From Vanrija pseudolonga (Eukaryota; Basidiomycota; Tremellomycetes; Trichosporonales; Trichosporonaceae), in contig NC_085850.1 in assembly GCF_020906515.1 (NCBI RefSeq), positions 558,001 to 622,000 of the forward strand: a DNA stretch of 64,000 bases, given 5' to 3'. A program made the position numbers and the translations under genes. This document shows, one piece after another, positions 41,213 to 59,099 of the stretch; positions within the stretch are counted from its first letter, which is position 1, and each line of letters opens with the position of its first letter. The notes under the pieces were generated by a model. The model ran no database searches and was not told where the DNA came from. It was given only the letters and a program-made list of their open reading frames with translations.

Positions 41213-43834
41213 ATGGACTCGGATGCCCCCTCGTCCACCGGCTCCCAGGGCCCGTCCAAACCCAAGGTCAATTGGAAGAACGGCCCACCAAGCTGCAAGG
41301 AGTGTGTGCGACTCAAGCTCAAGGTAGGTGGTGGTGTGACGTCGCGCCCCGCTGACCCCAGTGTTCGCGCTCATGGCCGTGCACCAGCTGTGTGCGCCGA
41401 GGATGTGAGAAGATCTGCCCCCTGGGCACGCTTCCTGGGCGGTGAGTGTCTCCGTCGTGCCGAGCAACGTCTGACGCCCTAGCCAACCAAAGGCACAGGC
41501 GACGATCCTCCAGCTGCAGAAGGAAAACCGCGAGCTCAAGGCCCGCGTCGCGCGACTCGAGGGCAAACCCCTCAGCGCTATCGAGATGAGCGAGCAGACG
41601 AGCCCCTCATCGGATCGGCTTGACTCGGAAGCCGGCCCATCGCGCGCTAGCCTCGTACGTCGCCGTCGATCTCTTTGACACAAACAATCTCGGCCCGGTT
41701 CTATCTGCATATCTGACACTTGCAGCAATCCGGCGGTATCGGAGAGTACACTCCATTTTCGGCAGTCTCCCCAGAGCCCGATCACGCTCCGCCCAACCTC
41801 GATGCCCGCGACGACACCATGCTCGATACTACCGCCGTCCCAACGGCGGGCATCATGGAGTCGGGCAGGGACGGCACAAAGTACCTCGGCCGTGGCGCTG
41901 GCACCCTGTTTGTCATTGAGGACGATGAGGTGGGTGGTGTGCGGGTGTGCTTGCGGCAGTCGGCCGCGGCAAACTTTCCGCTGATCGGAATGTCTTCTAA
42001 CCGCCAATCCCAGCCAACACCATCTTCGCTCGTGTTCCCGTTCATGTCATCTGACCGCGCGGCGCTGGCCAATGTGCATGAGCTGTTTCCTACGGTCGAT
42101 GAAGCGTACAGGTTACTCGATGTTTATGGTACGTGGGGTCGCGAGAGAGTGGCACTGACAATCCAGAACGCGAGGTCGAGTGGATGTACCGGCCACTGGA
42201 CCGCCTCGCTGTGCGCGAAGCGCTCCAGTCAATCTACAGCGGCGGATCGATCAGCGAGCGTATCCACCATGTCCCACCACACCGCCTGGCGACCGTCTTG
42301 ATGGTGTTCGCCCTGGCGATCACCTTCACAAACGGGCCAATGTCCCAGTCAATGCCGTTCTTCAACGCCGCTTCGGCGCTGCTCTGCGTGCCCGAACGTC
42401 ATTTCATGGTACGCCATACCCTCTCCTCGGTCGAGACGCTTCACATGATGGTCTCGTACCTCTTGACACTCGGCAACGCACTCTCGGCGAAGGCCGCGTG
42501 GCCGCTCATCGGCCTGTGCGTGCGCATCGCCTGTGCCATCGGCCTGCATCGCGACCCGTCGTCGTGGGGCCTGTCGCCCAAGCAGGAGGAGGATCGCGCA
42601 CGTCTGTGGTGGGAGTGCGTCACGTACGACATGTTCCTCGGCCTCAACTATGGCCGCCCGTACGCCACCCCCGCTCAGCTCATCAACGTGTCTCCGCCTC
42701 CGTATCCCGCCGATGGCGGAGTCACACCATCAGACTCGGTTTTCCACGCCTTCAAGTACAGACTCGCCCAGTCGTTCTTCCGCATCGCCGACTACCTCGG
42801 CAGCCCAGAATTGCCCGACTACTCGGTGGTGGTGACGCTCGACTCTGAGCTCCGTCGAGTGGAGGCACAGGCACCAAACTGGCTCAAGTGGTCTGACTTT
42901 TACGACCCGGCAACGATGAAGTTGTCACCGACGTATATCACGCAGCAGCACTCGGCCACCATGTTTTATCACAAGGGCCTGCTCGTGCTCCACCGCCCAT
43001 GGTTCTTCAAGGCTGTCCAGAGCGGGTCCGAGCCACTGCTGGGCTCGTACGCGGCGTCGTTCACCACGTGTGTAACATCAGCTCGCAAGCACACTCGCCT
43101 AATGGCCTCGCTGCTTCGCTGCTGCCCACAGGCAGCGTACGGCTGGTGGTACTTTATCTGTAAGCAGGGTGTGATGGAACAATAGACACACGCGTCGCTA
43201 ACCACCGCCAGTCCACGCCTTCACGGCCGCCATCATCCAGTACACTGTCCTCCGCCGCGTGCCGCAAAGCATGATGGCCGACGAAGTGCGCGCCGACTTT
43301 GACGCGTCGTTTGACATCATCAAGCAAATGTCAGAGCACTCTGGCACGGCTCGGCGAGCGCTCCCCGTGCTCGCTCGCCTCCACGACAGGCTTAAGGACT
43401 CGTCGAATCCCACTCCCACGTCGACGTCTGGGGGCGACATTGGGGACCGTGCGCTGTATGAGATGTTCTTGGGCTCAGCGTGAGTTGTGGCGCGTCTATA
43501 AATGGTACATTCCCCACTGACACCCGACAGGGCCCCCAACCCCGCCCCGGACATGAGCCAGGAGCTCTCGTGGGGCCAGCAGATGGACCCGAATGGCGTT
43601 TCCATGTACAACCCACCCGCCCCGGGCTACGACACTACGAGCATGATGCTTGGGTTTGAACAGCCAGCAATCCAGCCTACCAACCAGGACCAGATGTCTA
43701 TTACAGACCCACTGATTCAGACTTTGTGAGTGGGCTGCTGCGCCTACGTGGGCCGTGCTGACATGTACAGGCTGTACTGGAACGCCATTGCGAACCCAGA
43801 GGCTCCGCAGGGTATCCCTGTGCCCCAGGTGTAA
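41213..43834 (+). CDS. Zn2Cys6 fungal-type transcription factor
   Basis: Nine exons (41213-41323, 41362-41441, 41483-41654, 41726-41929, 42014-42128, 42167-43159, 43212-43479, 43531-43725, 43771-43834) give 733 residues. The N-terminal zinc cluster reads SCKECVRLKLKCSRSWPCTSCVRRGCEKICP, split across the first intron, with six ligand cysteines in the expected order. A coiled-coil-like linker (ILQLQKENRELKARVARLE) follows and suggests dimer formation. The middle (about residues 230-560) is a fungal-specific regulatory domain with SKQEEDRARLWWECVTYDMFLGLNYGRP-type sequence. The C-terminus is Pro/Gln/Asn-rich. Target genes cannot be read from sequence. The nearest divergent gene is the acid phosphatase. 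Confidence 0.9.
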
Positions 43835-45285
43835 GGCGCATGAGCTCGGCGTGAGCTCGGTGGCGAGTTCGGTGGCTCGGGCGACAGGGTCCGAGTGGTG
43901 AGGAACGGTGACGGCCTGGTGAGGCACTTCCGGCACGGGTCGGCACGCGCGGATGGCATCACCAAATGACTCAGTGACAGCCGCACATGGAGAAGTGGAA
44001 AACTCGAATGCGAGACTCGTGGCGTGATTCGTCAAGACGTCCGACTAGACTACCTTGTACTGTCCGAGAGATGTTGTACTGCCCGGTGCCTGCAGCAGCT
44101 GAGTAACTCTTGTGTTCCTTGTAAGGGCATGGAAGGTCGACTTTGATGAGGGTACGAGGGCCGGTGTGGACCAGGATGTCGTCGAATTGGTGGTGGCTGC
44201 CCCACTGATCAGGAGATAGTGGGTGGGTCTGTGCCCGCGGCGTGCGTAGTTACGTTGGGTGGGGAGACGCAGGCTGAGCCCGCGCGACCATAGCGTGATA
44301 GCCGGGTGCGATTATCACTCGAAAGGGGGAGGGACAGAGGCACGCGTCGGCGAGTACGTATCGGAACTGCGGTTTGGATTGTTGGATTTTCGAGGGCAGG
44401 CTTGCGAGCTGAGCAGAGAGGTCAAGGGCGACTCATGGCAGCTGGACCCAGGTGAGAGCGCAAAGGCCGCGCCTGGAGCTATTCGCAGCCGCGCGCCCAA
44501 GCCAAACAGACCGCTCCCCGCGCGCGCACCACCCACAAACAACCAACCAACCCTCGCCCCGTCGTCTCGCACCCCGTTTCCCCCTTCGTTCTTTCAAACG
44601 CACAACGGGCCGTCGCCGCCAAGAAGCAAAGCAGGCATCAGCGTAGCCCGCGACACCTTCCACAAGCGGCAGCCAGTGTCGATGGGATAGCCTAAACAGT
44701 GCGGGCGGTCGGGTGCGGCCGGGGGCGATCGCGATATCTGACTTGGCTTGGCGGCGCTTACCCTGGGACGAGTTGCGGCTCTGGCCCCGGGGCCCACGCT
44801 TCCCCGCCCCGTATCGACGCCTCGTTTGTGGCGTCACGTCACTCGCTCTGCGTTCCGACACCCGAGTCACACCACCCGAGTGAGCGGTGAGCGACGAGCG
44901 ACTCGAGCAGGATGTGGCCGTGGCCGTCGTGCAGTGCTTGGTTCCCTGCAGGACGCGCCAGCCGGGTCGTCGAGCGCTCAGCCCAGCTCGCTCGTTCGGG
45001 TGGGGGCAGCCCAAGGGACCAAAAAGTTCGAAATTATCGCCCTCTTGCCGCAGGAAACACTGCGGCAATGGTATCTGCCGGGTGGAGGGATGATTTACAA
45101 AGATTTACATGCGGCCGGCCAGGGAGGGTGGGTGAGCTCGGGTTGCCGCCGTGGGGTAGTAGGTGGGGAGGTGTGGGTCATCGGGTGCGAGTATAAAGGC
45201 GGGCGTGGGGGATAAACACGTCGTTGTCGCCTCCACACCTGATTGTCTACCTACGCACCGAGCACACGAGCCCAGCCAAGTCACC
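43835..45285. other. Intergenic region before the first Ato-type transporter
   Basis: A 1.45-kb stretch with no supportable gene. Open frames on both strands between 44.3 and 45.2 kb have high Arg/Pro/Ala content and no motif. The 3' end is a promoter with a TATA box at 45192-45197. Confidence 0.55.
45192..45197 (+). promoter_or_regulatory. TATA box of the first Ato-type gene
   Basis: TATAAA lies 94 bases upstream of the start codon in a GC-rich background, a good candidate for a regulated, inducible core promoter. Confidence 0.6.
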
Positions 45286-46156
45286 ATGTCCCCGAACCAG
45301 AGCGAGTCCGAGTCCTCGGCGCCAGTCTACCTCGGCGCCGGCAACGCCGAGAAGGGCGCCGCGGGCCACATCGAGCGGCACATCACCCCCGGCGGCCACC
45401 CCGTCGACTACTCGCAGCCCGGTATCCCCGTCGAGCACAGGAAGTACGGCAACCCCATCCCGCTCGGTCTGATCACGTTTGCCGTCGACTTCTTCCTCGT
45501 CGGGTTGTATGTGCTCGGTGGTGAGTCGCGCGTGCTCTTACTTCCGGCGGGCAATGCTAACTCGCCCGCCCAGCCCGCGACGTCCAGTCCACCGCCATCG
45601 TCATCCCCGTGCTCATGCTGCTCGGAGGCATCTCGCAGACGTTTGTCGGCTGGTTTGAGATGTTCATCGGCAACACGTACTCTGCGACCATCTTCGGCAC
45701 GTTTGGCGGCTTCAACATGTGCTACGCGGCCATCTACATCCCGTCGTTTGGCGTGCTCGACGCGTTCAAGGACGCCAACGGCAAGCTCGGCGACTCGTTC
45801 AACCAGGCCATGGGCATCTTCTTTGTCGTCTGGTCGATGTAAGTGCACCACGCCCGTGCTTGTCTGTGCTCGTGCTCGTGCTCACTCCCGCCCACAGCGT
45901 CGGCTTCTTCTTCGTCCTCGCGTCGTTCCGCTCGTCGGTCGCCATCCTCTCCACCCTCACCTTCACGACCCTCACGTTCGTCTGCCTCGCCATCTTCAAC
46001 ATGACTGGCACCAAGGGCTCGCAGTACGCTTCCGGCGCCATGGCGTGCATTGCTGCGTGGTGCGGCTTCTGGGCCGCGCTCGCAGGCTACTGGTCCCCCG
46101 ACACGACGTACGACTTTATCCGCCTCCCGCCCATCTCGCTCGCCAAGGAGGACTAA
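45286..46156 (+). CDS. GPR1/FUN34/YaaH (Ato) family acetate transporter-type protein
   Basis: Members are small six-helix plasma-membrane proteins linked to acetate, succinate or ammonium export and uptake. Three exons (45286-45520, 45574-45838, 45898-46156) give 252 residues. The signature GNPIPLGLITFA opens helix 1. Conserved later parts are LMLLGGISQTFVGWFEMFIGNTYSATIFGTFGGF and the last helices ending AALAGYW. The soluble N-terminus carries the usual ITPGGHPVDYSQPGIP segment. It is followed by a second, more diverged copy 2.2 kb downstream on the same strand. Confidence 0.92.
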
Positions 46157-48342
46157 GCGGCGAGCAGGGGATGAGCAAGGCCCGCGCGAGAGGGGCAGTC
46201 AGTTACAGTCAGAAGTTCGTCGTTGGGCGCATAGGTTATCGATTAATATGCATGGGTGCCTGCGTGTGGGGTCGTGTTGGCAGGTCAATGCGCAATCAGA
46301 AACACCCCCCCCCCCCCCCAAGGTCAAGAACTTGGCCTTTGTGATCTCCAACACGGCCTTGAGCGTCAGCCAGCATCGAAGCACGTTCACAGCGAACGTG
46401 TTTGCCATCCTGCCACCTGTTGTGTCCCTCCTCCTTGTTTCGTCGTGTTTACTCACACCTCCTTGTTTCGTCGTGTTTACTCACACCTCCTTGTTTCGTC
46501 GTGTTTACTCACACCTCCTTGTTTACTTTTTCTCGCTTCGAAAGTAGACCCCGCACCGCCACTTGCACTTCCGCGTTTCGTTTCGTTTTGATTCACCGTC
46601 CAAGAATCACGCCATGGCGTGGCAGGGCGGCAGTGATCGAGCCAAGAGCCCTGCTGACGGACATGCACGCCGCTGGGTCGAACGGACAAACACGTCGTAG
46701 GCTTGGATGCGGACGTGGCGCGCGTCACGCTCAACGGCCTCGACGCGACATTGACGCGTTTGGCCACGCGTGGCGACGTCGGCGACGCGTCTGCCGGTGG
46801 TGTCGACGGGGTGGCTGGCGGGCGGGCACGCAATTAGTGGTCGCTCCACCGCGGGAGCGGGTCTCTTGCCAGTTGGTTATAACTCGGTGTCGAGGACTGT
46901 TGACACTTCCTCCGGGTGACGTGAGTGAGTATTAGACGAGTAACTGTCCTGGTGGTGCACGGGGTTACGTGGCAGCTGGGTGAGTCTCCTCGGGGAGCCA
47001 AACCGTCGTGTGCTGCATACAAGCATGCCAACTTGTACCCCTGACGCCAGCGCCCAACACCCCCACTCTCGCGTTGTTGACAGTGGCATCGGCCGCAGTC
47101 AAGGCACAATCTCCGCCGACGCGGCCGAGCCAGCACCCACTCGCCCGCCCGGCTGCCACAGGTCAGACCCAGCGGAATACGGAATGCACATCCCAGTCTG
47201 TGTTTGCCTCCGCACGTACTTGCACACTGCACACACCGAGTGACGACCGACAGTGTGACGTCGTGGCGATCATCACCTGACTGTGTGCCTCGTCTCGAGA
47301 CAGCGTCACCGGCCGGTCGGTGACTAAGTAGTCGGCCGTATGCCTGGCCAGCCAGTGTTTCTCGGTGGCGCTTGGCGTACGTGCATGCTGACATGCTGAC
47401 CAAAGTTGACCTCGAGTGGCGAGCTGTCTGTCGGCGACCCACCGTCGTGTGTCAGCGCTGACCGAGTACTGGATCGCACTCACGACGCTCCGCTTGGTTG
47501 CGAGCAATCTCGATGCGGAGTTGCTCCACATTCCCACTGGCGACGCGCGCTTGTCCGCCACCATGACTAACCCGCCTGGCGGTGCGTGCCAGCCAGCGCA
47601 GATTAGTCCCCCCACTTTATGATAACCCAGCCGCTGGTGTCGACGTCTGGGCTTTGACTGCGCATGTAGCAGCAGCACGATGCATGCATGTCGGCGGGTG
47701 GGGCCACCCGACTAACACCCCCCACCCCCACTCCCCCGCCACCCACCCCGCGCGCCCGATCAGCACGGAGCGTGCGGAGTGGTGTGGCGGGCAAGAGACG
47801 CGACACTCCGCCAGACGGACTAGTTCCGCGTCGGAGAGTCATATTTGTGCGGCAAGTGGGCCAGTGTGTGCGGGTGTGCGCGTGTACATGCAGTCATGCG
47901 CGAGGTGTCGACATGTACATTTGAGAGCTGCGGCAAGCATTTGAGAGATGTACACGACATCTGGTATTGAGTAGTCCCGAAGAGACGAGCCGAGGCGGCG
48001 AGGCGACGCGAGGCACAACAACCGAGCTAGTAGGGGCTCTATTTCCATTTGCTGACAATGATCGCAATCCAGTGACGGTGCTCGTCCGCCGCGCACGCAG
48101 CCCCGGCCGGCCGGCCCTTGCTGCAAGCAGCATGCAGCATGCAACACCGTGCACCCATGCACGTATATCTACCTCGGCTGCGACTGCATTCCGCGAGCTC
48201 TCCCACTTGCACACTAACTAGCATTGCTTGGCACGACTTTGCAGGTTCACCATTGCGTTGAACCAGCACCACCACCACCACCACCACCCGCCAAACCTCC
48301 ACTGCCGCCCGCCGCCACCACCAACACCACCACACCACCGCC
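46157..48342. other. Intergenic region between the two Ato-type genes
   Basis: No gene is supported in 2.2 kb. It contains a run of about 16 C (46304-46319), a 28-bp tandem repeat (46430-46524) and a TGCATGC motif near 47682. A minus-strand open frame at 46834-47442 has no recognisable features. The end is rich in CCACCA triplets before the second transporter start. Confidence 0.55.
46430..46524 (+). repeat. 28-bp tandem repeat, about 3.4 copies
   Basis: Three nearly perfect 28-bp units beginning CCTCCTTGTTTCG and ending TACTCACA follow head to tail, plus a partial fourth. The run lies about 275 bases after the first Ato-type gene's stop. Confidence 0.85.
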
Positions 48343-49631
48343 ATGTCCTCACCGTCATCCAGCTGCGAGGACATCCTCGCGCCCGTCCCGCGCCCATTCC
48401 ACATCTACTACGACGACGACATCGAGAAGGGCTTACCCCCCTTCGAGCCCCGCATCGAGCGCATCCTCACCCCACTGGGCCACCCCGCAGACTTTTCCCA
48501 GCCCGGCGTCCCGCGCCAGCATGTACGTGCACGCCGCCCGCCCATGGGCCACCACTCACCCCCTCGCAGCGGGTATACGGCAATCCCACACCGCTCGGAC
48601 TATTGTCGTTCGGATACGGCTTTTTCCTCCTCTCAGCGTTCACGTTGCGAGGTACGTCCGAGTGCCACTCGGCTCTAGCATCCATCCATCCAGCTGACCC
48701 AAATAGCCCAAGGGGTGCACTCTGTAAATGTGGCAGTTCCGTGAGTACCCACGGCCGTAAAACCCCACCCGCCTCCACAATCCGCAACTATGCCGCCTCC
48801 ACCCAAACTCTATCAATGCATCCCCGCTGAAACACCCCGCTGACCATGACGCAGTGCACTTGGTACGTCCTCCCATCGGGTGCTACGACGCGCCACGACG
48901 CTAGCATGCATGTGCTGACCAGAATAGTCCTCTTTGGCGGCATTTCACAGACGTGAGTGGAGGCCCCGTGGTCGCTGCCGCGTTGCCGCGTGGAGCTCCG
49001 CGCAGCCGCCGAGCTAGCACACGCGCGAACAACAACTAAACTAACTTTCACAGCTTGTGCGGCTGGTGGGAGATGTCCCTCGGTAACACGTACATGTGAG
49101 TAGTGTGGAGGTGTGGAGGTGTGGAGTGGGGGGAGGATCCGAGCCGTGTTGTGGTCGCCGGGCTACCTCTCGGCCGGGAGGGGCCGTCTCGCAACTTAAC
49201 CAACAACAACTGACGCGCGGAGGGCGACCATCTTCGGCTCGCATGGCGCTTTTAGCCTGTCCTACGGGGCGATGTACCTCCCAGCGTTTGGTGTCGTGTC
49301 CGCGTACACGCTCCCCGACGGCACCCTCGGCTCCGAGTTCAGCGAGGCCCTCGGGCTCTACTTTGTCGGCTGGGCGATGGTGTCGGTCCTCTTCGTCATG
49401 GGCAGCCTGCGCTCGTCGGTCGCGATGATGGCCGTGCTCACTGCGACTGCGCTGTCGTTCCTCACCCTGGCGGTGTACCACCTCACCGAATCCAACGGCG
49501 CGCGGATAGCCGGTGGCGTGTTCAGCGCGCTCACGACGGCTGCCGCGTGGTGGACCGCCATGGCGGGATACTGGCACGAGGACAACACTAGCCCGTGGGT
49601 GCGCGTCAGCGCAGGCGACATGTGGCGATAG
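48343..49631 (+). CDS. Second, diverged GPR1/FUN34/YaaH (Ato) family protein
   Basis: Seven exons (48343-48522, 48570-48651, 48707-48740, 48855-48862, 48928-48952, 49054-49095, 49223-49631) join in frame to 259 residues. The product reads GNPTPLGLLSFG for the family signature, VAVPALVLFGGISQT for helix 2 and LGNTYMATIFGSHGAFSLSYGAMYLPAFG for helix 3. The fourth exon is only 8 nt. The intron after helix 1 falls at the same place and phase as intron 1 of the upstream copy, which shows common origin. The N-terminal segment (TPLGHPADFSQPGVP) also matches. Extra introns have accumulated in the 5' half only. Expression is uncertain, but no frame break exists. Confidence 0.82.
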
Positions 49632-49908: not shown

Positions 49909-50665
49909 ATGGGGAGCTACCACCTCACCATGTCCCCGCGCATCACCCACCTGTACCAAGCCACCATGGCATACAAGGAGGCTCTCAACCGGCAAGCACA
50001 CCCCCACTCGCGCGAGCTTCCAGCCTTCAACGACGCCGTGAGTCCCTCCGCTGGCCGACACTCACCCCGGGGCCAGGGCATGCTCATGACGCGGTATCAC
50101 AGCGAGACCATTGAGGCGTGGTACTGGATCTACGTGAACAAGTAGGCCGTCCCACGCACTTATGTAGCTGACGTCTGGCCGGCCACAGCGCCGCTGGGGA
50201 CGTGGAAGCCGGACACGGCGTACACGGTGTTCAAGGACCGGAGTGATGAGATGAGTGATCGTGAGTGTCTCGACCTGGCAGCGGCTGAGACCAGTCTCCC
50301 CCGGGGGCCGGGTGAGCGTGCACACTCCGTACAGCAGCCGCGGCCTCCTTCGCCTCGCAGGTGCCCGCCCGCCCGAACCCCCGGTCTACGTGCTCTTCCT
50401 GTTCGCGTGGAACGAGCACCGGTGCGTACAGCACAACGAGCAAGTCACCACCGAGTGGCTCACCAGCCCCGTGCCTACCATCGGGCGGTGGCGCACCGTC
50501 CCGTTCGCCGGGTGGCCGCAGCTCCTCATGCTCGCGCATGCGTGGCACTCGTGCGCTGACAAGGCCGCGTTCTGGAAGAAATACATCATCACGGATGGCG
50601 CGTTCTCCATCTGGATGCGTGAGGAGGACGTTTTGGTGCTTGTGCGGGAGTTTGGGCGGCCTTGA
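49909..50665 (+). CDS. Tandem unknown family, member A (possible pseudogene)
   Basis: First of six diverged copies of a family I do not recognise. Exon 1 (from ATG 49909, or ATG 49930 in the same frame) ends LPAFNDA. A 39-nt intron follows, then GQGMLMTRYHSETIEAWYWIYVN, an intron, then APLGTWKPDTAYTVFKDRSDE, an intron, then PPEPPVYVLFLFAWNEHRC and LLMLAHAWHSCADKAAFWKKY. These match the four family blocks. Intron positions match members B, C, D and F. At the second intron (donor about 50143, acceptor about 50188) the phase-2 donor does not restore the frame of the next block; there is one surplus base. Either the copy is frameshifted, splicing is non-canonical, or there is a sequence error. 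Confidence 0.55.
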
Positions 50666-50931
50666 GTGACGACGAGGGGAGGAAGAGGGAGGGGGGAGTA
50701 CTCGAAGAGTGTGGGCCTAGAAAACTATGCATGCACAAGTCACACCCGCCTGCTCGCACTCTGCACCTTATCGTTTACCCCCAAGGTAGGCTTGTCTGAC
50801 TCCAGCCCGGTTGGCTTGTTTGAAAACACCCCGGTAGGATTGTGTGGCACTACCCGGAATCCCTCTCCTCCTCTCTTCATAACTCCCCTCCGTGCGGAGC
50901 ATCCAACACATCGTTCAAGAAGCGGTTTTCC
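50666..50931. other. Spacer with 24-bp imperfect repeat
   Basis: Three imperfect copies with a 24-base period, each starting near GGTAGGCTTG or GGTTGGCTTG, lie at about 50783-50856. No gene is seen. Confidence 0.5.
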
Positions 50932-51002
50932 ACACTGTTGGTGAAACGGTATCATGCGTCGTTGCCATCGACGCGGCAGGGGTTCGACTCCCTTACAGTG
51001 TA
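50932..51002 (+). tRNA. tRNA-Gly (anticodon GCC)
   Basis: A full intronless cloverleaf can be drawn. The acceptor stem ACACTGT pairs with ACAGTGT (7 of 7), with discriminator A. The D arm has GTGA/TCAT. The anticodon stem CGTCG/CGACG is perfect, with loop TTGCCAT giving anticodon GCC. The T arm has loop TTCGACT closed by AGGGG/CCCTT with one G-T pair. Length is 71 nt, normal for fungal tRNA-Gly, and the anticodon arm resembles that of yeast tRNA-Gly(GCC). It sits between members A and B of the tandem family. Confidence 0.88.
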
Positions 51003-51277
51003 TAGAACTTGAGAAGACCGAGAGGTTCAGGTGTCTTTTGCCACTTGGTTTGCTCGCACCGCGGCTCGCACCAGGGTTGTGTGGCGCCACTTTCGCCACG
51101 CACCATTCTGAAACCTTTATCAGACACATCTCAAACGCACCCCCTGTCTGTGCTCAAGATTATCTGTTGTCCTGGAGCACTGATCTCATCCTTCTCGATG
51201 GCCAAAGCTGCCTCGTGGACGACTTAAAAGGAGGCCTCCCAGTCCAGTGGCAGGCCCCCCTCAAAGACTCTGACGTC

Positions 51278-52714
51278 ATGGCACCCCCACCCCCAGCCCG
51301 CTCCTTTGCGGAGGAGGAGGCCCTCAAGCGCAGACCTATCGACAAGAAGGAGGAGGCCAAGCTATCGGACCTCGAGCTGGAGGAGCGGAAGCCCCGGCCA
51401 TACAAACTCAGCGACGTGCTTCCCGCCTTCGACCGCCAGGTGAGTCGGTACATTTTCAGCGGCGCCACCGTGCCTGACATCCGATGCAGGGCAACCTCTC
51501 AACTCTTGACAAGTGGGACAAGGTCCAAGCGCGCATCTGGTGGTACGTGTTTCATTGCTTGTAGCACCTGATAACCCCCCTTAGGTACCCTGGACCATTG
51601 GGGAACTGGGAGCCCCACACCTGGGTCACGATTTACACCGACTCGAGCGAAGAGTACTGTCTCTGTGAGTAGACTCCTGCAGCATGGCTTATTCACCTCA
51701 GCACGCGATAATGTACATGAAGATCGCCGAGTATACGTTCATCATCGAGTGGGACACAATATGAAGTACGAGAATATCAAGAAGGCCAATCCCCCGCCGT
51801 GCGACGTATCTGTCAAGTTTCTGTTCGACTGGAATAAACACCGACACCGAGCCCTGCACACAAAAGAGAACGAGTGGAAGGTGAACCCAGCTCCAACCAC
51901 AAAGCGCTACTATTCCACAGTGCAGAACCTTTCGAAGGAGCTTCGAGACGCCAACAACAACCACAACGACCCGCCAGACGTTCACCAAGGGACGCATCTA
52001 TACGGGAATGGGTTCCAATACCAACCTATCGATTCCGACGAAGAGAAGGCGGCCAAAGACAAGGCGGCCAAAGACAAGGCGGCCAAAGACAAGGTGGCCA
52101 AAGACAAGAAGGCCAAAGAAAAGAAGGCCAAAGACAAGAAGTCCAAAGACACGAAGGCCAAAGACAAGAAGGACGACGACAAGAAGGACGACGACACGAA
52201 GAACAAACCCGCCGAGCCGCCAGGACCGCGATACTCTACGCGGACCAACAATGAGGCCGACTACGTCCAGCCAAAGATGGAAGATGGCTTCGTGCAGGTC
52301 CCGTTTGAGAGCTGATCACAGATCCACAGTCTCGCCGAGGTCTGGCACGCCTCCCCCGACAAGGACAATTTCTGGAGGGAGTACTCCGCCCTCCCTGGAG
52401 CCTTCAGTAGCCGCCTTCACAAGCGCCTGGTACTCGTAAATGAGTTTGTCAAGAAGCGCAAGCGGACCATAGCAGCGGCAGCTGCAGCGGCACCGGTGGC
52501 TCCACAGGCTCCGGTAGTGCCAGGGCCAGAGGTGGAGCCAGCGCCAGACCCAAAGCAAGAGCCAAAGCAAGAGCCAAAGCAAGAGCCAAAGCAAGAGCCA
52601 AAGCAAGAGCCAAAGCAAGAGCCAAAGCAAGAGCCAAAGCAAGAGCCAAAGCCAGAGCCAGAGGTAGCCGCAGAGCCAGAGCCAGAGGAGGCAGACGCAG
52701 AGGCGGCTACTTGA
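51278..52714 (+). CDS. Tandem unknown family, member B, with low-complexity insertion and in-frame TGA
   Basis: Exons 51278-51439, 51490-51542, 51585-51664 and 51702 onward show all family blocks: LPAFDRQ|GNLSTLDKWDKVQARIWWYPGPLGNWEPHTWVTIYTDSSEEYC, then PPPCDVSVKFLFDWNKHRHR. After that comes an insertion with eight 15-bp repeats coding AAKDK-type pentads (52049-52168) and an acidic stretch. A TGA at 52313-52315 then interrupts the frame. Downstream, in the same frame, is the missing last block, IHSLAEVWHASPDKDNFWREY, then KKRKR and eight PKQE repeats (52550-52645), ending at 52714. The insertion may be an unrecognised intron (a good acceptor, CTGATCACAG, ends at 52327, but no strong donor was found), or the gene may be split. 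ATG 51278 opens a charged N-terminus; the frame is open further upstream but would run into the tRNA gene. Confidence 0.6.
52049..52168 (+). repeat. 15-bp coding repeat x8 (AAKDK pentads)
   Basis: Eight units of the GCGGCCAAAGACAAG type lie head to tail, with variants in later copies. They encode a Lys/Ala/Asp-rich segment inside member B. Confidence 0.9.
52550..52645 (+). repeat. 12-bp coding repeat x8 (PKQE)
   Basis: Eight near-identical copies of CCAAAGCAAGAG encode (PKQE)8 in the C-terminal tail of member B. The uniformity of copies points to recent slippage or unequal exchange. Confidence 0.92.
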
Positions 52715-53435
52715 GTCCGATTAGAAATGTTGCAGTCCACCCCGCTGGATCGGGGTGCTATCGTATGTGTTATGAATCGTTGTTGAACTCCGCTGTCCCG
52801 GCGGCGGTGATCGGAGATATTCCCCCAGACCAAAAACCAATAACCCTCACCTCGCCTCACCTCGCCTCGCCTCGCCCTGTTTCACGACGGAGGCTCAGAT
52901 TCCAGGCAAGACAGCAAGACATATTACAATGCAACGAATCACATACAGTGGCGATCACTGATCGCGGCGGCTCGCCCCGAAGTGTACCCCTAGACGTCAC
53001 TTCGCACCGTCGAGGCCGAGGCCAAATCTTCCTTCTGCAGCCTCGTTTCGTGACACTCTGCAATGGGACAATGGGCCGTCCAGTCCTTTCGTTACTCGCA
53101 CCGGCCGTAGTGAAACCACGCACCCCTCTGCTCTCAGCCGTCACGAGCTGCGGCGCTTCGGCCACGCACCTCCTTTGATCGCCACACTCCTCGTGCCAGT
53201 GCGAGCTGTGTCCCTCGCCCCGCGGACAATACACAACGAGGGACACACGGTTCATCCCCTTGGGACACATATTTCCTTCTCATTCACACGGGCGAGAGAA
53301 TGTTTTTTGTCTGTTTGTGCGTGCCCAGGACGTGGATACAGTGTCGACAAGGATAAAAGGCCCGTCCCACAGCGCTCAACTCTCGTCAGCCCACTCTCTC
53401 CTTCCTCAACCCTAGCTAAACACCAAATCACCATC
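52715..53435. other. Spacer between members B and C
   Basis: No gene is supported. A run of CCTCACCTCG/CCTCGCCTCG simple repeats lies at about 52845-52880. The end carries an ATAAAAG element near 53353, about 80 bases before member C, which may be its TATA box. Confidence 0.5.
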
Positions 53436-54995
53436 ATGTCTAGGCTGCGCTCCTCGAACCCTTGTGTTCGCAGTCAGCAGTACCCTCCCACAATGAGCGA
53501 CGCCGATAAGGCTACCATTCGCCGTGCGCACTTCGACCTCGAGCAAGTTCCCGGCTTTAACAGGCATGTGAGTTGCACTCTTTTCCCCCACACGCCCCTC
53601 CAACTGACCACCAGGGCAACCTCTACATCAAGTATCGAAGCTTCAACACCCGGGAATACCGGTACTACAAGTACGAGCTTCCCCCCACAGTCATCACTCA
53701 CACAACCGCAGCTGGGACCGTAGAAACCGCAGTGAAATCTGGGAGCCTGGAACGGTGTGGACCCACTACCGCGACGGGAGCGATGAGCATTATGAATGTC
53801 AGTCCAACTCTGGCTCCTAACAAGCTGTGTGTGTGCAGTTCCTGATCCGACAGTTCATTTCACCGGCGCGTGTACTCTATCTAAGACAAGGGACACCCCG
53901 TACTCGCCGTTCCTTTCTCACGACCCTCGTCGAGTTCGCCCCATCGCAGTCCCGACCTACGTCAAGTTCCTCTTCAACTGGAATCAGAAGCACCATGCTT
54001 CCCTAGGAACTCTTCCACTGCCGCTCTCTTCACCCCAACGCCACACTCCCTCTCGGTTCGACCCGGTGGAGACGCCCGATATCGACACAGTTGGCGAGCT
54101 TCTTGCCCTGGCGGATGAGTGGGCCGAGAACCCGGCGAGGTTCTGGGTGCAGCACAGGTGGAACCGCTTCCGCTCTCCTGCCCAGGCCAGGCCCCAGACT
54201 CCATACCGCTCCAGGATCACTTTTGAGCCGGCTACTCCCGAGGACGAGGACGAGGAGGAGTCCGGTGTGGACGAGCTAGTCGACGAAATGAGCCACCTCG
54301 TGGTCGGCACCGGCGAGCAGCAGGCCGAGGTGAACGCCTTCACGGCCGAAGTGGAGGCCACGTTTCCTCCCCCGGGCCAGCCCAACGCTCTGACCGAAGA
54401 GTCTTTTGTTTTTGTCCCTGTTCCCGGCAGTGAGGCGGGAGGAACCCAAGGTGGCGACGGCAGCCCAGCCGTGGTTGACACGGCCAACGCAGACCCCTAC
54501 GTCGTTGTAGCGGCCACCGACGGAGAGGCGGAGGGTTCGAGTGGCGGCGATGTGGCCGGAGGTGCCACTGATCCTGGTTCAGGTGCCACGCAGACCACCG
54601 AGGAGGAGGAGGAAGCCGTTCTGGTGGAGACGGAGGAGGAGGGCGGGGTCGGCGAGCCTGGCGCCGTGGAGGAGGAGGCCGCCCCAGTGATCGTGGAGGC
54701 GGAGGACGCGGTGCCAGAGGCCGGGGAGGCTGAGAACGCGGGACAGGTCTACCAGATTCCTTCTCACGGAGTCAGCTCCGTCTCGGGGCGTCTCCTCAAC
54801 GCCATGCGCGTCGCCACCCCAGCCCTGCAGGCTATGTCGAATTGGGTAAGGAGCAGCTCGGCTCCTAGCCGTCCGATCATTGATGAAGCACGCACTGCTC
54901 TTCGCGAGCTCTCTGAGGTTCTCAACACCCTTAAAGAGCTGCTGCATGACCCCGCGACGGGGTACCCCTACCCCACGACTCCCCGCCGCCGGTAG
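53436..54995 (+). CDS. Tandem unknown family, member C, with long acidic tail
   Basis: Four exons (53436-53567, 53615-53670, 53733-53797, 53839-54995) give 469 residues with introns in phases 0, 2 and 1. The family blocks read VPGFNRH|GNLYIKYRSFNTREYRYY, EIWEPGTVWTHYRDGSDEHYE, VPTYVKFLFNWNQKHH, and TVGELLALADEWAENPARFWVQHRW. After about residue 210 comes an acidic, Glu/Val/Gly/Thr-rich tail of about 200 residues that includes EEEEEAVLVETEEEGG. The protein ends with a helical segment (SVSGRLLNAMRVATPAL and ARTALRELSEVLNTLKELL). No signal peptide or membrane helix is seen, so a cytosolic or nuclear location is inferred. Function is unknown. Confidence 0.8.
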
Positions 54996-55537
54996 ACAAC
55001 GACGACGCCGAACCTCCACCTCCCCTCCGTTCCGCTTCAGCACCGCCCTTTGACTGTCCACTGTGCATAGAGTTGATAGATTCCGCTCGAGCAGGTCCTC
55101 TGAGCCAAATGCATATATTTATGAACATTTCAGCGTTCTGGGGTGTATGTTAGACGCTGACAGCGGGAGACTGGACTGAGGACGGAGAACGTCGATTAAA
55201 TCCGAAAAAAAAGTTCATTTTCCGTTGACAGTCTGAGGCCTCACTTGTGTCTCTCCTTTGACGGGATTCGGGATGACTACCGACTGGCTTCGTTCGATTG
55301 TAGCATGAGCGGTTGACTATGCCTTTGACAGAGGGAGCCCGTGGCACAGCGGCCTTCATCGCCGGCAGTGTGGCACAAGACATTCAGTCAATGCGCTCGA
55401 CGACTTTCGAAACGCTCCTCCTGCATTGACTCCTTCCCCTGTCATCCTCCTGACCTGCCCTCCTACCTATGCGATGCACACCAGCTCTCATTGTACTTCT
55501 AAGTGACTTTAAACCTGCTCCTTAGTCGCTGCGATAT
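54996..55537. other. Spacer between members C and D
   Basis: No gene is seen. It is somewhat lower in GC than the flanks and holds an AT-rich patch near 55110-55135. Confidence 0.5.
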
Positions 55538-56575
55538 ATGCCTCAAGCTCACAGCTTCGCCCACCCTCCTCATCAACCTCACTACAACCAACGCCCCCAC
55601 TTCCCCTCACCAATGGTCTACCCAGGCTACTCATCTCCCATCGCGGAGGAGTATGAACGCCACATCGCCCACGGAGAAGCTCTGGGTCCCCGCTCTCCCG
55701 AGGGGACGCTTGCCTCCGTCCCCGTGTTCTGTGCCGAGGTGGGCAAGGGTACCCGTGTGCCGTGCTCACCAACCCAGGGCCATCTTCACTGCAGCTATGT
55801 CAGCGGACGTATTCGGTCCCGCCGCTGGGTGTGAGTGGCCTCCATGACACCGCTGACCCCAGGTGGGGTATTCCAAACGAGGACACGGTGATCGTCCTGC
55901 GCGCCGTGATCACCCAGTACGAGGACGACAGCATCGAGATCTATAAGCGTGCGTGGTGGCGTCTCAACTAAGGCTGACGGCTCAGATTCACCCCTTAGCT
56001 ACTACGAGGAGCCACTCGCGCGCCAGAGCCTCATCGCCTACGGCCCAAACCACAAGAGGAGAACTGTGGACGCCTTTCCTGTCGAAATCGAGGTGCCCGC
56101 CTACGTGGGCTTCCTGAAGGACTGGAACGACGAGCGCTGTCTGAGGAGTGATCTCCCACTCCAGTATGAGGTGTTCGGCGATGACGACTCGTACGACAAG
56201 TTCAACGATGATCCGGCCGCAGGGCTGTCTTCGAAGGAGCCCCACCAGGTCCCCGACATCTCAAGCGTCGACAGTCTCCTTCGCCTTACTGAAGAGTGGT
56301 TGCCGAACCAGGATGCTTTCTGGAGGACACACTCCTGGGACCAGCTCGACACTGCCTCGCTCGGATATGAGGTCCCACTCGTTTCAAGTGACACCGCCAC
56401 TGACACTGAAGACAACGAGTTGATTCCGTCGACCCCGACGGCTAAGAGCATGAACAACGAAGAAGCTCCCAAGACACCGGAGCCGCGACGTAGGAAGCTC
56501 CGCATTCGGACTTGGACGCCACGGTCGCGGCGTGGTGGGCAGGCCGCTCACCCGACGAACTGTGCGGGTCAGTGA
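55538..56575 (+). CDS. Tandem unknown family, member D
   Basis: Four exons (55538-55738, 55778-55830, 55863-55948, 55986-56575) give 309 residues with the family's phase 0, 2, 1 introns. The first intron is 39 nt and open in frame. The N-terminus is rich in His, Pro and Tyr. The blocks are diverged but ordered: VPVFCAE|GHLHCSYVSGRIRSRRW, VIVLRAVITQYEDDSIEIYK, VPAYVGFLKDWNDERC and SVDSLLRLTEEWLPNQDAFWRTHSW. The tail is acidic and then basic (RRRKLRIRTWTPRSRRGGQ). The first block has lost the usual Asn in favour of Cys. Function is unknown. Confidence 0.78.
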
Positions 56576-56856
56576 GATGGGCCTACGAAGTCTTGGTATA
56601 GGATCTCAAAGGTCGCTTTCAAAGGCTCAGGCAGTTATTATCATCGTTACATTCTCGTAGATGTGCATGCAGGAGTTGGTGGAGAAGGTGGTGTGCCGGT
56701 CGCATTGCTCCGATGAAAAGCGCCACACACTCGCTGGTCTCATCACTTTGACCCTCCCTGCCTGCCTATTTTAAGTGCCCCACAGGGAAATGGTCCCATC
56801 GAATCTTGCTCAACCACCCACAATCGACAACTGACAACATCCAACAGCTAGCAACC
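56576..56856. other. Spacer between members D and E
   Basis: No gene is seen. A TATTTTAAG element near 56767, about 90 bases before the member E start, may serve as its core promoter. Confidence 0.45.
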
Positions 56857-57396
56857 ATGATCAATGTCCATCCCAGTGAAGACGTCATGGCCAACGACCT
56901 CCGCATCCTCACGACGGCACCGCAGAATATGAAACTTCCCGGAGTGAACAAGTACGGTAGCTGGCGCTCTGTGTACTCAGGCGACAAGATCAAATACCGC
57001 TACTGGAACCCGGAAAGGAACCGTCCTTGGGTGCTTCGCTCCGTAGCGACAGTCTACACGGACAACAGCATGAACGTGCACTTCGTTGCATCCCGCACGA
57101 GGTACGTCTTCCAGCAGGTTGGGGACCCCTCCCCGATCCTCAAAGAAACTGGACGACAGCACGGTGTGCCGGACTGCATTCGCTTCCTTCTCATGTGGAA
57201 CTCTTTGCGCTGCGTGTCCCGCGGGATCCAGATCCAGGATCGAGGCGATCGCCACGTCCATGACTTCCATGGGGAGCCTCTGGCCCGACCCACGTTCAGC
57301 GTGGACGAACTTTACTCGATGACCAACAAGTGGTCCTCGAACCCCAACGATTTCTGGGACGACTACCCTGACAAGTGGTTCGCTGTGAGGGCTTAG
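56857..57396 (+). CDS. Tandem unknown family, member E (intronless)
   Basis: A single exon of 179 residues carries every family block in one open frame: LPGVNKYGSWRSVYSGDKIKYRYWN, VLRSVATVYTDNSMNV, VPDCIRFLLMWNSLRC, and FSVDELYSMTNKWSSNPNDFWDDY. At each of the three sites where members A, B, C, D and F have introns, member E reads straight through. It has no low-complexity tail, so it probably shows the minimal domain. Loss of all introns suggests an origin by reverse-transcribed mRNA or gene conversion with cDNA. Function is unknown. Confidence 0.82.
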   Translation: MINVHPSEDVMANDLRILTTAPQNMKLPGVNKYGSWRSVYSGDKIKYRYWNPERNRPWVLRSVATVYTDNSMNVHFVASRTRYVFQQVGDPSPILKETGRQHGVPDCIRFLLMWNSLRCVSRGIQIQDRGDRHVHDFHGEPLARPTFSVDELYSMTNKWSSNPNDFWDDYPDKWFAVRA

Positions 57397-58362
57397 CCTG
57401 TCTCGCCGAAGCGCGCGACCGGGACTCCTGAGGGGAGCAGGGGCTGGGGAGGTGGAAGGAGGGACAATGGACGGAGAGACGAGTCCCCCAGGAGACGGAG
57501 GGGGGAGCGCTTTTGGAGCGTAAGGACGAATGTGGAACCGACGAAGACGATCGAGGAAGGTGCGTTACCTTCACTGCAGCCCATGAGACCGCTGACGCCT
57601 ACAGACGACAATCGAAGACGAACATTTGCCGAGTTTCGACCGGCAGGGCTGAAGTAGCCCCATGCTGCAGCTGGAGGGCGAGGGGCGGCCCGTGTGCCGG
57701 ACCCTTCAGCTGAGCCCGAACCCACTTCCAGTCTCGACAGAACAGACACTGCGAGTGGCTTCGAAGATCGCCGCAGCGAGCGGGCGATAGGAGAAGGAGT
57801 GCGACGGTCGCCTCCCCTCGCGCAATGGAGCGCGAGGCATCAATTAGCTCTTACGACCGGCATGGGCCGAGTCAAGGACATGGGCATTGGGCCGCGTCAT
57901 ATAGACCGGCATGCCCGCACTACCCGGCACCTCAACACCGACAGTTGAGGCTGGCCCGGTGTGCATTTTACCGCCAGCAAGGTGCTAGCGGCGTGGAGTG
58001 CCGAGTGGCCTCCCCTCACTCAGCGGAGTGCGGGTACATCATACTAGGAGTGCCGAGTGGCCTCCCCTCGTGGCTTTTGCACGAGGCAGCAAAGACAGAG
58101 AGCTTGCAGTGCGCGTCCCCCCGCGACTGCGTCCACGCCCGCGAGGCCGTGGACCCCTGTGCATATGATGGACCAGACGTACTCTGGGCATGGTGTGCAC
58201 AGGGAGCCACGGCGCGAGCGTGAGGTCAGCGCCGTCGTAGCCGCCGCACTGACCTTGTTCCAAGCGAACACGCGCGAACAATGGGCACTGACCACGCCGC
58301 AGAGCACGCAACAACACAACAACTCGCCAGTATCCACCCGTCCGTATACCAGACTATGCACC
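57397..58362. other. Spacer between members E and F with direct repeats
   Basis: No gene is supported over 966 bases. Two perfect 23-bp direct repeats (57994-58016 and 58047-58069) and a further GCCTCCCCTC copy at about 57811 are present. I looked for a decayed family copy and found none of the blocks. Confidence 0.5.
57994..58069 (+). repeat. Pair of 23-bp direct repeats
   Basis: Identical 23-bp copies starting GGAGTGCCGAG and ending CCTCCCCTC lie at 57994-58016 and 58047-58069, with a 53-base offset, upstream of member F. They may be promoter elements or a duplication scar. Confidence 0.85.
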
Positions 58363-59099
58363 ATGATTGAACTCGAGCCGCCCGAGTGCGCCCCCGCACC
58401 CGCAGAGAACTACCCCGCCGTTCCCGACTGCTTCGCGGCGCAGCAGGCGCGCCAGCGCGCCATCTTCCGCCCGGCCGAGCTGCCCGGCGTGAACCGGTAC
58501 GTGAGTGCCGAGTCCTTACTCCACTGACGGAAGGGCAACTGGCGCACGATGTACGAGGGCAACGTGATATGGTACCGGTACTGGAAGTGAGCCATGAGCT
58601 AGCTAGTCGCGGGCTGACTTCAGTGTCGACGAGGACGACATGGGCCTCGTGGGGGCGATTATCACCGTGTACCGCGACGGCAGCATGGAGGGTGGGTTTG
58701 GGTTGGTTGGGGAGTGAGAGGGCTGACCCCGCGCAAGTCGACGAGGACGGCCACGGCGCAGGCTGGATCTACCCCGACTATCTTGACAAGAACGTCCGCT
58801 ACCTCGTGCCCATTGCGCCGCACACTATCCCGCCGACAATCCACTTCCTGCTCTCGTGGAACTTGCGCCGCTGTGCCGATGTCGGCGGCCCACTGGTTGG
58901 CGCAGAGGCGACCAAGGCCCGCAACCTCGGCGACCCGCCACCGCTCGTGCGGCCAGACTACATCACAAACTGGCACCAGCTCACGCGCCTCACCCGCGTC
59001 TGGCTCGAGGACGAGGCGGGCTTCTGGGACAAGTACCGGTGGTACTACCTCCGTCACGCACTCTCCGACACTCTCCCAAGACCAAACGTAGGGCGATAA
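58363..59099 (+). CDS. Tandem unknown family, member F
   Basis: Four exons (58363-58500, 58534-58586, 58624-58691, 58738-59099) give 206 residues with introns in phases 0, 2 and 1. The first intron is only 33 nt and contains a stop, so it must be removed. Blocks read LPGVNRY|GNWRTMYEGNVIWYRYW, VGAIITVYRDGSMEVDEDG, IPPTIHFLLSWNLRRC and HQLTRLTRVWLEDEAGFWDKYRWYYL. With member E this is the best copy for defining the domain. The stop lies 29 bases from the stop of convergent CTR9. Function is unknown; no signal peptide or membrane helix is visible. Confidence 0.82.

Follow-up and report, generated by a model that had tools for sequence, protein, structure and literature searches.

What do the six adjoining genes at 49909-59099 of a Vanrija pseudolonga genome window encode, and do they form a rapidly diversifying array, as a first-pass annotation had suggested? 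The window, by which we mean the whole stretch of DNA analysed, is 64,000 nucleotides long; Vanrija belongs to the Trichosporonales (Tremellomycetes). The six genes, here called members A to F, are consecutive homologues on the plus strand and carry shared sequence blocks in the same order. With moderate confidence, and from sequence comparison, we read them as an old, tandem, lineage-restricted family (at the level of Vanrija, according to the databases) of small non-secreted proteins with a predicted intracellular binding core.

The shared core and its relatives

For the comparison of the members, gene models were spliced by hand at GT-AG sites. A core of about 170 residues is common to A-F, with 21-33% identity to F. 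Its four blocks follow the order LPGxNRxGN, YRYWN...TVYxDxSxE, PxYVxFLxxWNxxRC, and LxxLTxxWxxNxxxFWxxY. Within FLxxWN, the F, L, W, and N do not vary across the core alignments, and the later W, FW, and W are invariant in a seven-row alignment. In a shuffle test, the local alignment scores of the six cores (exon 4 only for A) were confronted with 500 shuffles per pair. No shuffle reached the score in 12 of the 15 core pairs, one of 500 did so for D-A, and two of 500 for E-A. The expectation that the six proteins align better than shuffled sequences held for 14 of 15 pairs, each of which beat at least 498 of 500 shuffles, but failed for D-B, whose score was reached by 20 of 500. Together with the ordered blocks, the test bore out the six-gene plus-strand family described by the first-pass annotation.

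The differing ends that it had listed were all present as well: an acidic tail in C, Lys-rich and PKQE repeats in B, an Arg-rich tail in D, and minimal forms in E and F. Member C (exons 53436-53567, 53615-53670, 53712-53797, and 53839-54995) encodes 476 residues, including the long acidic tail, and member D (exons 55538-55738, 55778-55830, 55863-55948, and 55986-56575) encodes 309 residues. Member E (56857-57396) is a single exon of 179 codons, and member F (exons 58363-58500, 58534-58586, 58624-58691, and 58738-59099) encodes 206 residues. These four members have full open frames with a coding-like GC content at third codon positions (GC3), which ranges from 0.68 to 0.87 across the pieces of the members. 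Two of them correspond to public records, both uncharacterized: LOC62_02G001998 (P0004) is member C, and LOC62_02G001999 (P0001) is member D. Compared with the hand-spliced models, the first record takes intron 2 as coding and reads exon 3 in another frame, whereas the second takes intron 1 as coding; both public gene models appear to be wrong. For E and F, no annotated protein was returned by the protein-database searches with the family alignment and with F.

We searched the V. pseudolonga genome itself (24.87 megabases in nine contigs) with E, the C core, F, the D record, A exon 4, and the B core. The searches returned the array members and four outside matches on contigs C7, C1, C4, and C6, which were rejected as extra family copies at E-values of 0.062, 0.15, 0.017, and 0.013, respectively. 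Near-identical recent duplicates were not seen in these searches. A scan for the motif FLxxWNxxR, a pattern that misses C, gave 10 places, five of them in the array, and its control also gave 10. The motif WxxNxxxFW, which misses A and B, gave 26 places, of which four fall inside the array; the reversed control gave 10. None of the outside motif loci matched a first family profile, whose B row was badly cut, at an E-value of 5 or less. With a better family profile, the best of 33 outside loci scored 5.5 bits (E-value 2.1), and none was convincing.

In the protein database, the family alignment gave three matches among 1337 candidates, C one among 345, and F none among 169. The relatives found were the C and D records plus a pair of metagenome proteins, the F-like P0002 and the D-like P0003. 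The contig carrying each of the latter is 30,697 bases long and is probably one and the same; both proteins probably come from a related organism. Homologues are apparently confined to close relatives and the copies to one locus, as in a lineage-restricted tandem family, within the sensitivity of the searches, which was limited and at the DNA level covered V. pseudolonga alone among fungi. Literature listings showed no paper recognisably about the family, which has no name to search by, and the family is apparently undescribed and of genus level. Like orphan (taxonomically restricted) tandem gene families, the array occupies one locus and has no relatives outside the genus in the searches made; however, its shared intron sites and conserved counterparts suggest an old duplication and not a recent birth. 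A proteobacterial locus (L072), 31% identical to residues 6-76 of E, was rejected as a relative, as the stretch holds a stop, has an open frame of 56 codons without the family blocks, and scores -1.1 bits with the family profile. None of 1000 shuffles reached its local score against E, which is expected because the locus was chosen for having an eight-residue word in common with E.

The two metagenome proteins bear on the age of the copies. P0002 is identical to F at 91 of 104 residues (87.5%). P0003 is identical to D at 100 of 121 residues (83%) in the exon-4 core and at 44 of 74 (59%) in the tail. Both span only the exon-4 half of the core and nothing of exons 1-3. Since these counterparts are far closer to D and F than the paralogues are to F, the copies would have split long before the two organisms did. 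The exon-4 half of the core appears to have been kept while the D tail drifts, which counts against rapid diversification of that half. The family had been called fast-diverging, and this was not shown by the two partial counterparts; the companion claim of a conserved core with free tails holds for D.

Domain and fold searches

For the recognition of known domains, we used the curated cut-offs of Pfam-A and NCBIfam and an E-value cut-off for PHROGs. None of the five full proteins reached the curated Pfam cut-off. Of the 13 rows of the family alignment, 12 were long enough for the search, and they gave nothing at cut-off in Pfam or NCBIfam, the latter returning no matches at all. Below threshold, the core met SH3_15 (E-value 0.14, 12.9 bits against 24) and, in one row each, DUF2290 (0.087) and zf_Tbcl_2 (0.28); the single PHROGs match, phrog_23910 (0.064), also fell below threshold in one row. 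Residues 197-356 of B, which hold the K-rich repeats, met Vfa1 (E-value 0.00013, 22.8 bits against a cut-off of 27.3), and its PKQE repeats met Trypan_PARP (0.0026, 18.2 against 100). Among PDB sequences, the family profile met one sequence only, at an E-value of 0.96.

Two structure models were built, both of low confidence. The model of E, with a mean predicted local distance difference test (pLDDT) score of 55.6, has strands at 35-76 and helices at 106-121 and 149-177. The model of F exon 4 (mean pLDDT 62.8) has helices at 32-47, 78-98, and 104-111, which lie in blocks whose mean pLDDT is about 69-88. The models weakly suggest that strands dominate the first half of the core and that the second half is helical. 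Neither gave a fold match above background, the best Foldseek E-values against PDB being 1.4 and 6.7; a uracil-DNA glycosylase inhibitor-like fold was the candidate compared for the N-terminal half. The family thus stands as unrecognised, as first described: none of the Pfam, NCBIfam, PHROGs, and PDB-sequence searches gave a match at cut-off, and neither model yielded a fold match that could be used. The same results speak against a divergent branch of a known domain, masked by sequence divergence, which we regard as possible but on the unlikely side.

Introns and the irregular members

Members B, C, D, and F have three introns each, of 32-50 nucleotides and in phases 0, 2, and 1, at matching alignment places as judged by eye, whereas E has none of the three. 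The proposed conservation of these introns was correct for four of the six members; it failed for the intronless E and for A, which has a frame break. In E, the stop-free stretch of 214 codons was matched by three of 2000 base shuffles. Every intron shared by its relatives is absent from E, as in a retro-derived copy, and no poly-A tract was seen by eye in its 3' flank, after 57396. The available text of PMC2395259 describes five Cryptococcus genes in which the loss of several adjacent introns was interpreted as mediated by messenger RNA (mRNA). Member E resembles that case in lacking all three introns common to B, C, D, and F, but differs in that its loss is deduced from a comparison of paralogues instead of orthologues.

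Member B (exons 51278-51439, 51490-51542, 51585-51664, 51702-52291, and 52322-52714) has an in-frame TGA at 52313-52315, ahead of block 4. The TGA lies in a 30-nucleotide phase-0 stretch (52292-52321) with GT-AG ends and CTGAT near its end, the splicing of which would remove the TGA in frame. The shortest intron available for comparison, in D, has 32 nucleotides, and no counterpart of the candidate was seen in C-F. Exon 4 of A aligns with B over 52295-52450, a stretch that runs past the TGA and reaches block 4 (44%, 54 residues, E-value 2.6e-6). Because block 4 of B is still recognisable past the TGA, an intron is favoured over a truncating stop, and the TGA probably sits in a fourth intron of B. 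Members A and B group at 92/95, and both have a longer WHxxxDK form of block 4. The tails of B consist of 15- and 12-nucleotide tandem repeats, which suggests growth by slippage.

Member A has exon-like pieces at 49909-50037, 50077-50141, 50189-50260, and 50361-50668, with a GC3 of 0.83-0.87. The last piece, exon 4, aligns with the family; the first two pieces and the last two are in different frames. At the exon 2-3 junction, no GT-AG pair among those tried keeps both frames, whereas five GC-AG junctions do so, two of them retaining a stop and three deleting the conserved end of block 2. There are at least 12 stop-free GT-AG models, and among those listed, none reads exon 3 in the family frame. 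As a frame-keeping GT-AG junction was not found, A would be broken, spliced unusually, or hit by an assembly error.

These irregularities could also mean that most of the array is made up of decaying remnants of a single ancestral gene and that only one or two members still function. The frame break of A, the in-frame TGA of B, and the intronless state of E, a state found in only 35 expressed genes of Cryptococcus neoformans var. grubii according to the available text of PMC5851062, all fit such decay. We consider it improbable, however, as four members (C-F) have complete open frames with a GC3 like that of coding sequence, and as the parts of D and F encoded by exon 4 are conserved in their counterparts from elsewhere.

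Mode of evolution and surroundings

No hydrophobic N-terminus was found in B-F, where hydropathy over 10 residues peaked at 0.78 or less within roughly the first 40 positions; judged by hydropathy only, these members lack the N-terminal signal peptide of secreted effectors. Neither B-F nor A exon 4 contains a membrane span, the maximum 19-residue mean hydropathy being 1.21. The basic clusters KKRKR in B and RRRK and RSRR in D resemble what we take to be nuclear signals.

The first-pass annotation had placed the genes under diversifying pressure, with host-microbe effectors among the roles named, and a rapidly evolving array of this kind, with an effector, self-recognition, or anti-parasite role, would fit the low paralogue identity, the variable tails, the faster drift of the D tail than of its exon-4 core, and the one frame-broken member; it is nevertheless quite improbable and found no support, as B-F have no hydrophobic N-terminus, the counterparts of D and F preserve the exon-4 core well, the paralogues split long ago, and the own-genome searches returned no near-identical recent duplicates. 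Very unlikely, finally, is a new domain that originated within the Trichosporonales and joins a strand-rich half to a helical FLxxWN/WxxNxxxFW module behind it, its members acting inside the cell as guards or regulators and owing their diversity to their tails.

For the old, lineage-restricted family that we prefer, tandem duplication of a three-intron ancestor would have produced the array before the two organisms split. Member E would then have shed its three introns in a single event, by way of a spliced-mRNA (complementary DNA) intermediate, and A would since have decayed, unless it is spliced unusually or carries an assembly error. The tails would have arisen by repeat slippage in B and would elsewhere be charged, probably disordered sequence. 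More tentatively, the core may be a small binding module inside the cell, with the FLxxWN and WxxNxxxFW motifs in its helical half, and the variable charged tails may set partners or location.

Several points weigh against this reading. The pair D-B fails the shuffle test, and the 22 places with WxxNxxxFW outside the array exceed the 10 of the control, an excess that is unexplained. The tree is poorly resolved, with one of five inner branches starred, so that which intron state came first for E rests on parsimony. The low pLDDT of both models makes the fold part of the explanation weak, and the counterparts are two partial metagenome proteins that cover part of the core only. In addition, it may be that neither A nor B is functional, in which case four members remain.

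The outcome of the analysis is a protein family not previously described, together with proposed gene models; for two of the six members, the public models are apparently faulty. Adjoining copies in the array represent one gene with three introns, with a probable four, with none, and with a broken frame. As Cryptococcus, of the same class, is reported in the available text of PMC5851062 as rarely losing introns, the array offers a compact place to study intron loss and gain, along with the persistence of orphan families.

A tRNA-Gly(GCC) gene lies inside the array, between A and B (50932-51002). The spacer between E and F contains an exact 23-nucleotide direct repeat (57995-58069; 52 nucleotides from start to start), and nothing else in the genome matches this spacer. 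TATA-like hexamers are found at -54, -83, and -30 from the ATG of B, C, and D, that is, in three of six members against 1.3% of random 150-bp stretches, for a pattern picked after seeing the sequence and a control unmatched for the lower GC of these upstream stretches.

Downstream of the array, the minus strand encodes a TPR protein, presumably CTR9. Upstream, a fungal transcription factor domain occupies 42103-43182, followed by GPR1/FUN34/YaaH-like pieces at 45163-45700, 48528-48770 (just below cut-off), and 49200-49628, which are probably two tandem genes. Close to these pieces, at 46430-46524, lies a 28-nucleotide tandem repeat of 3.4 copies with 100% matches.

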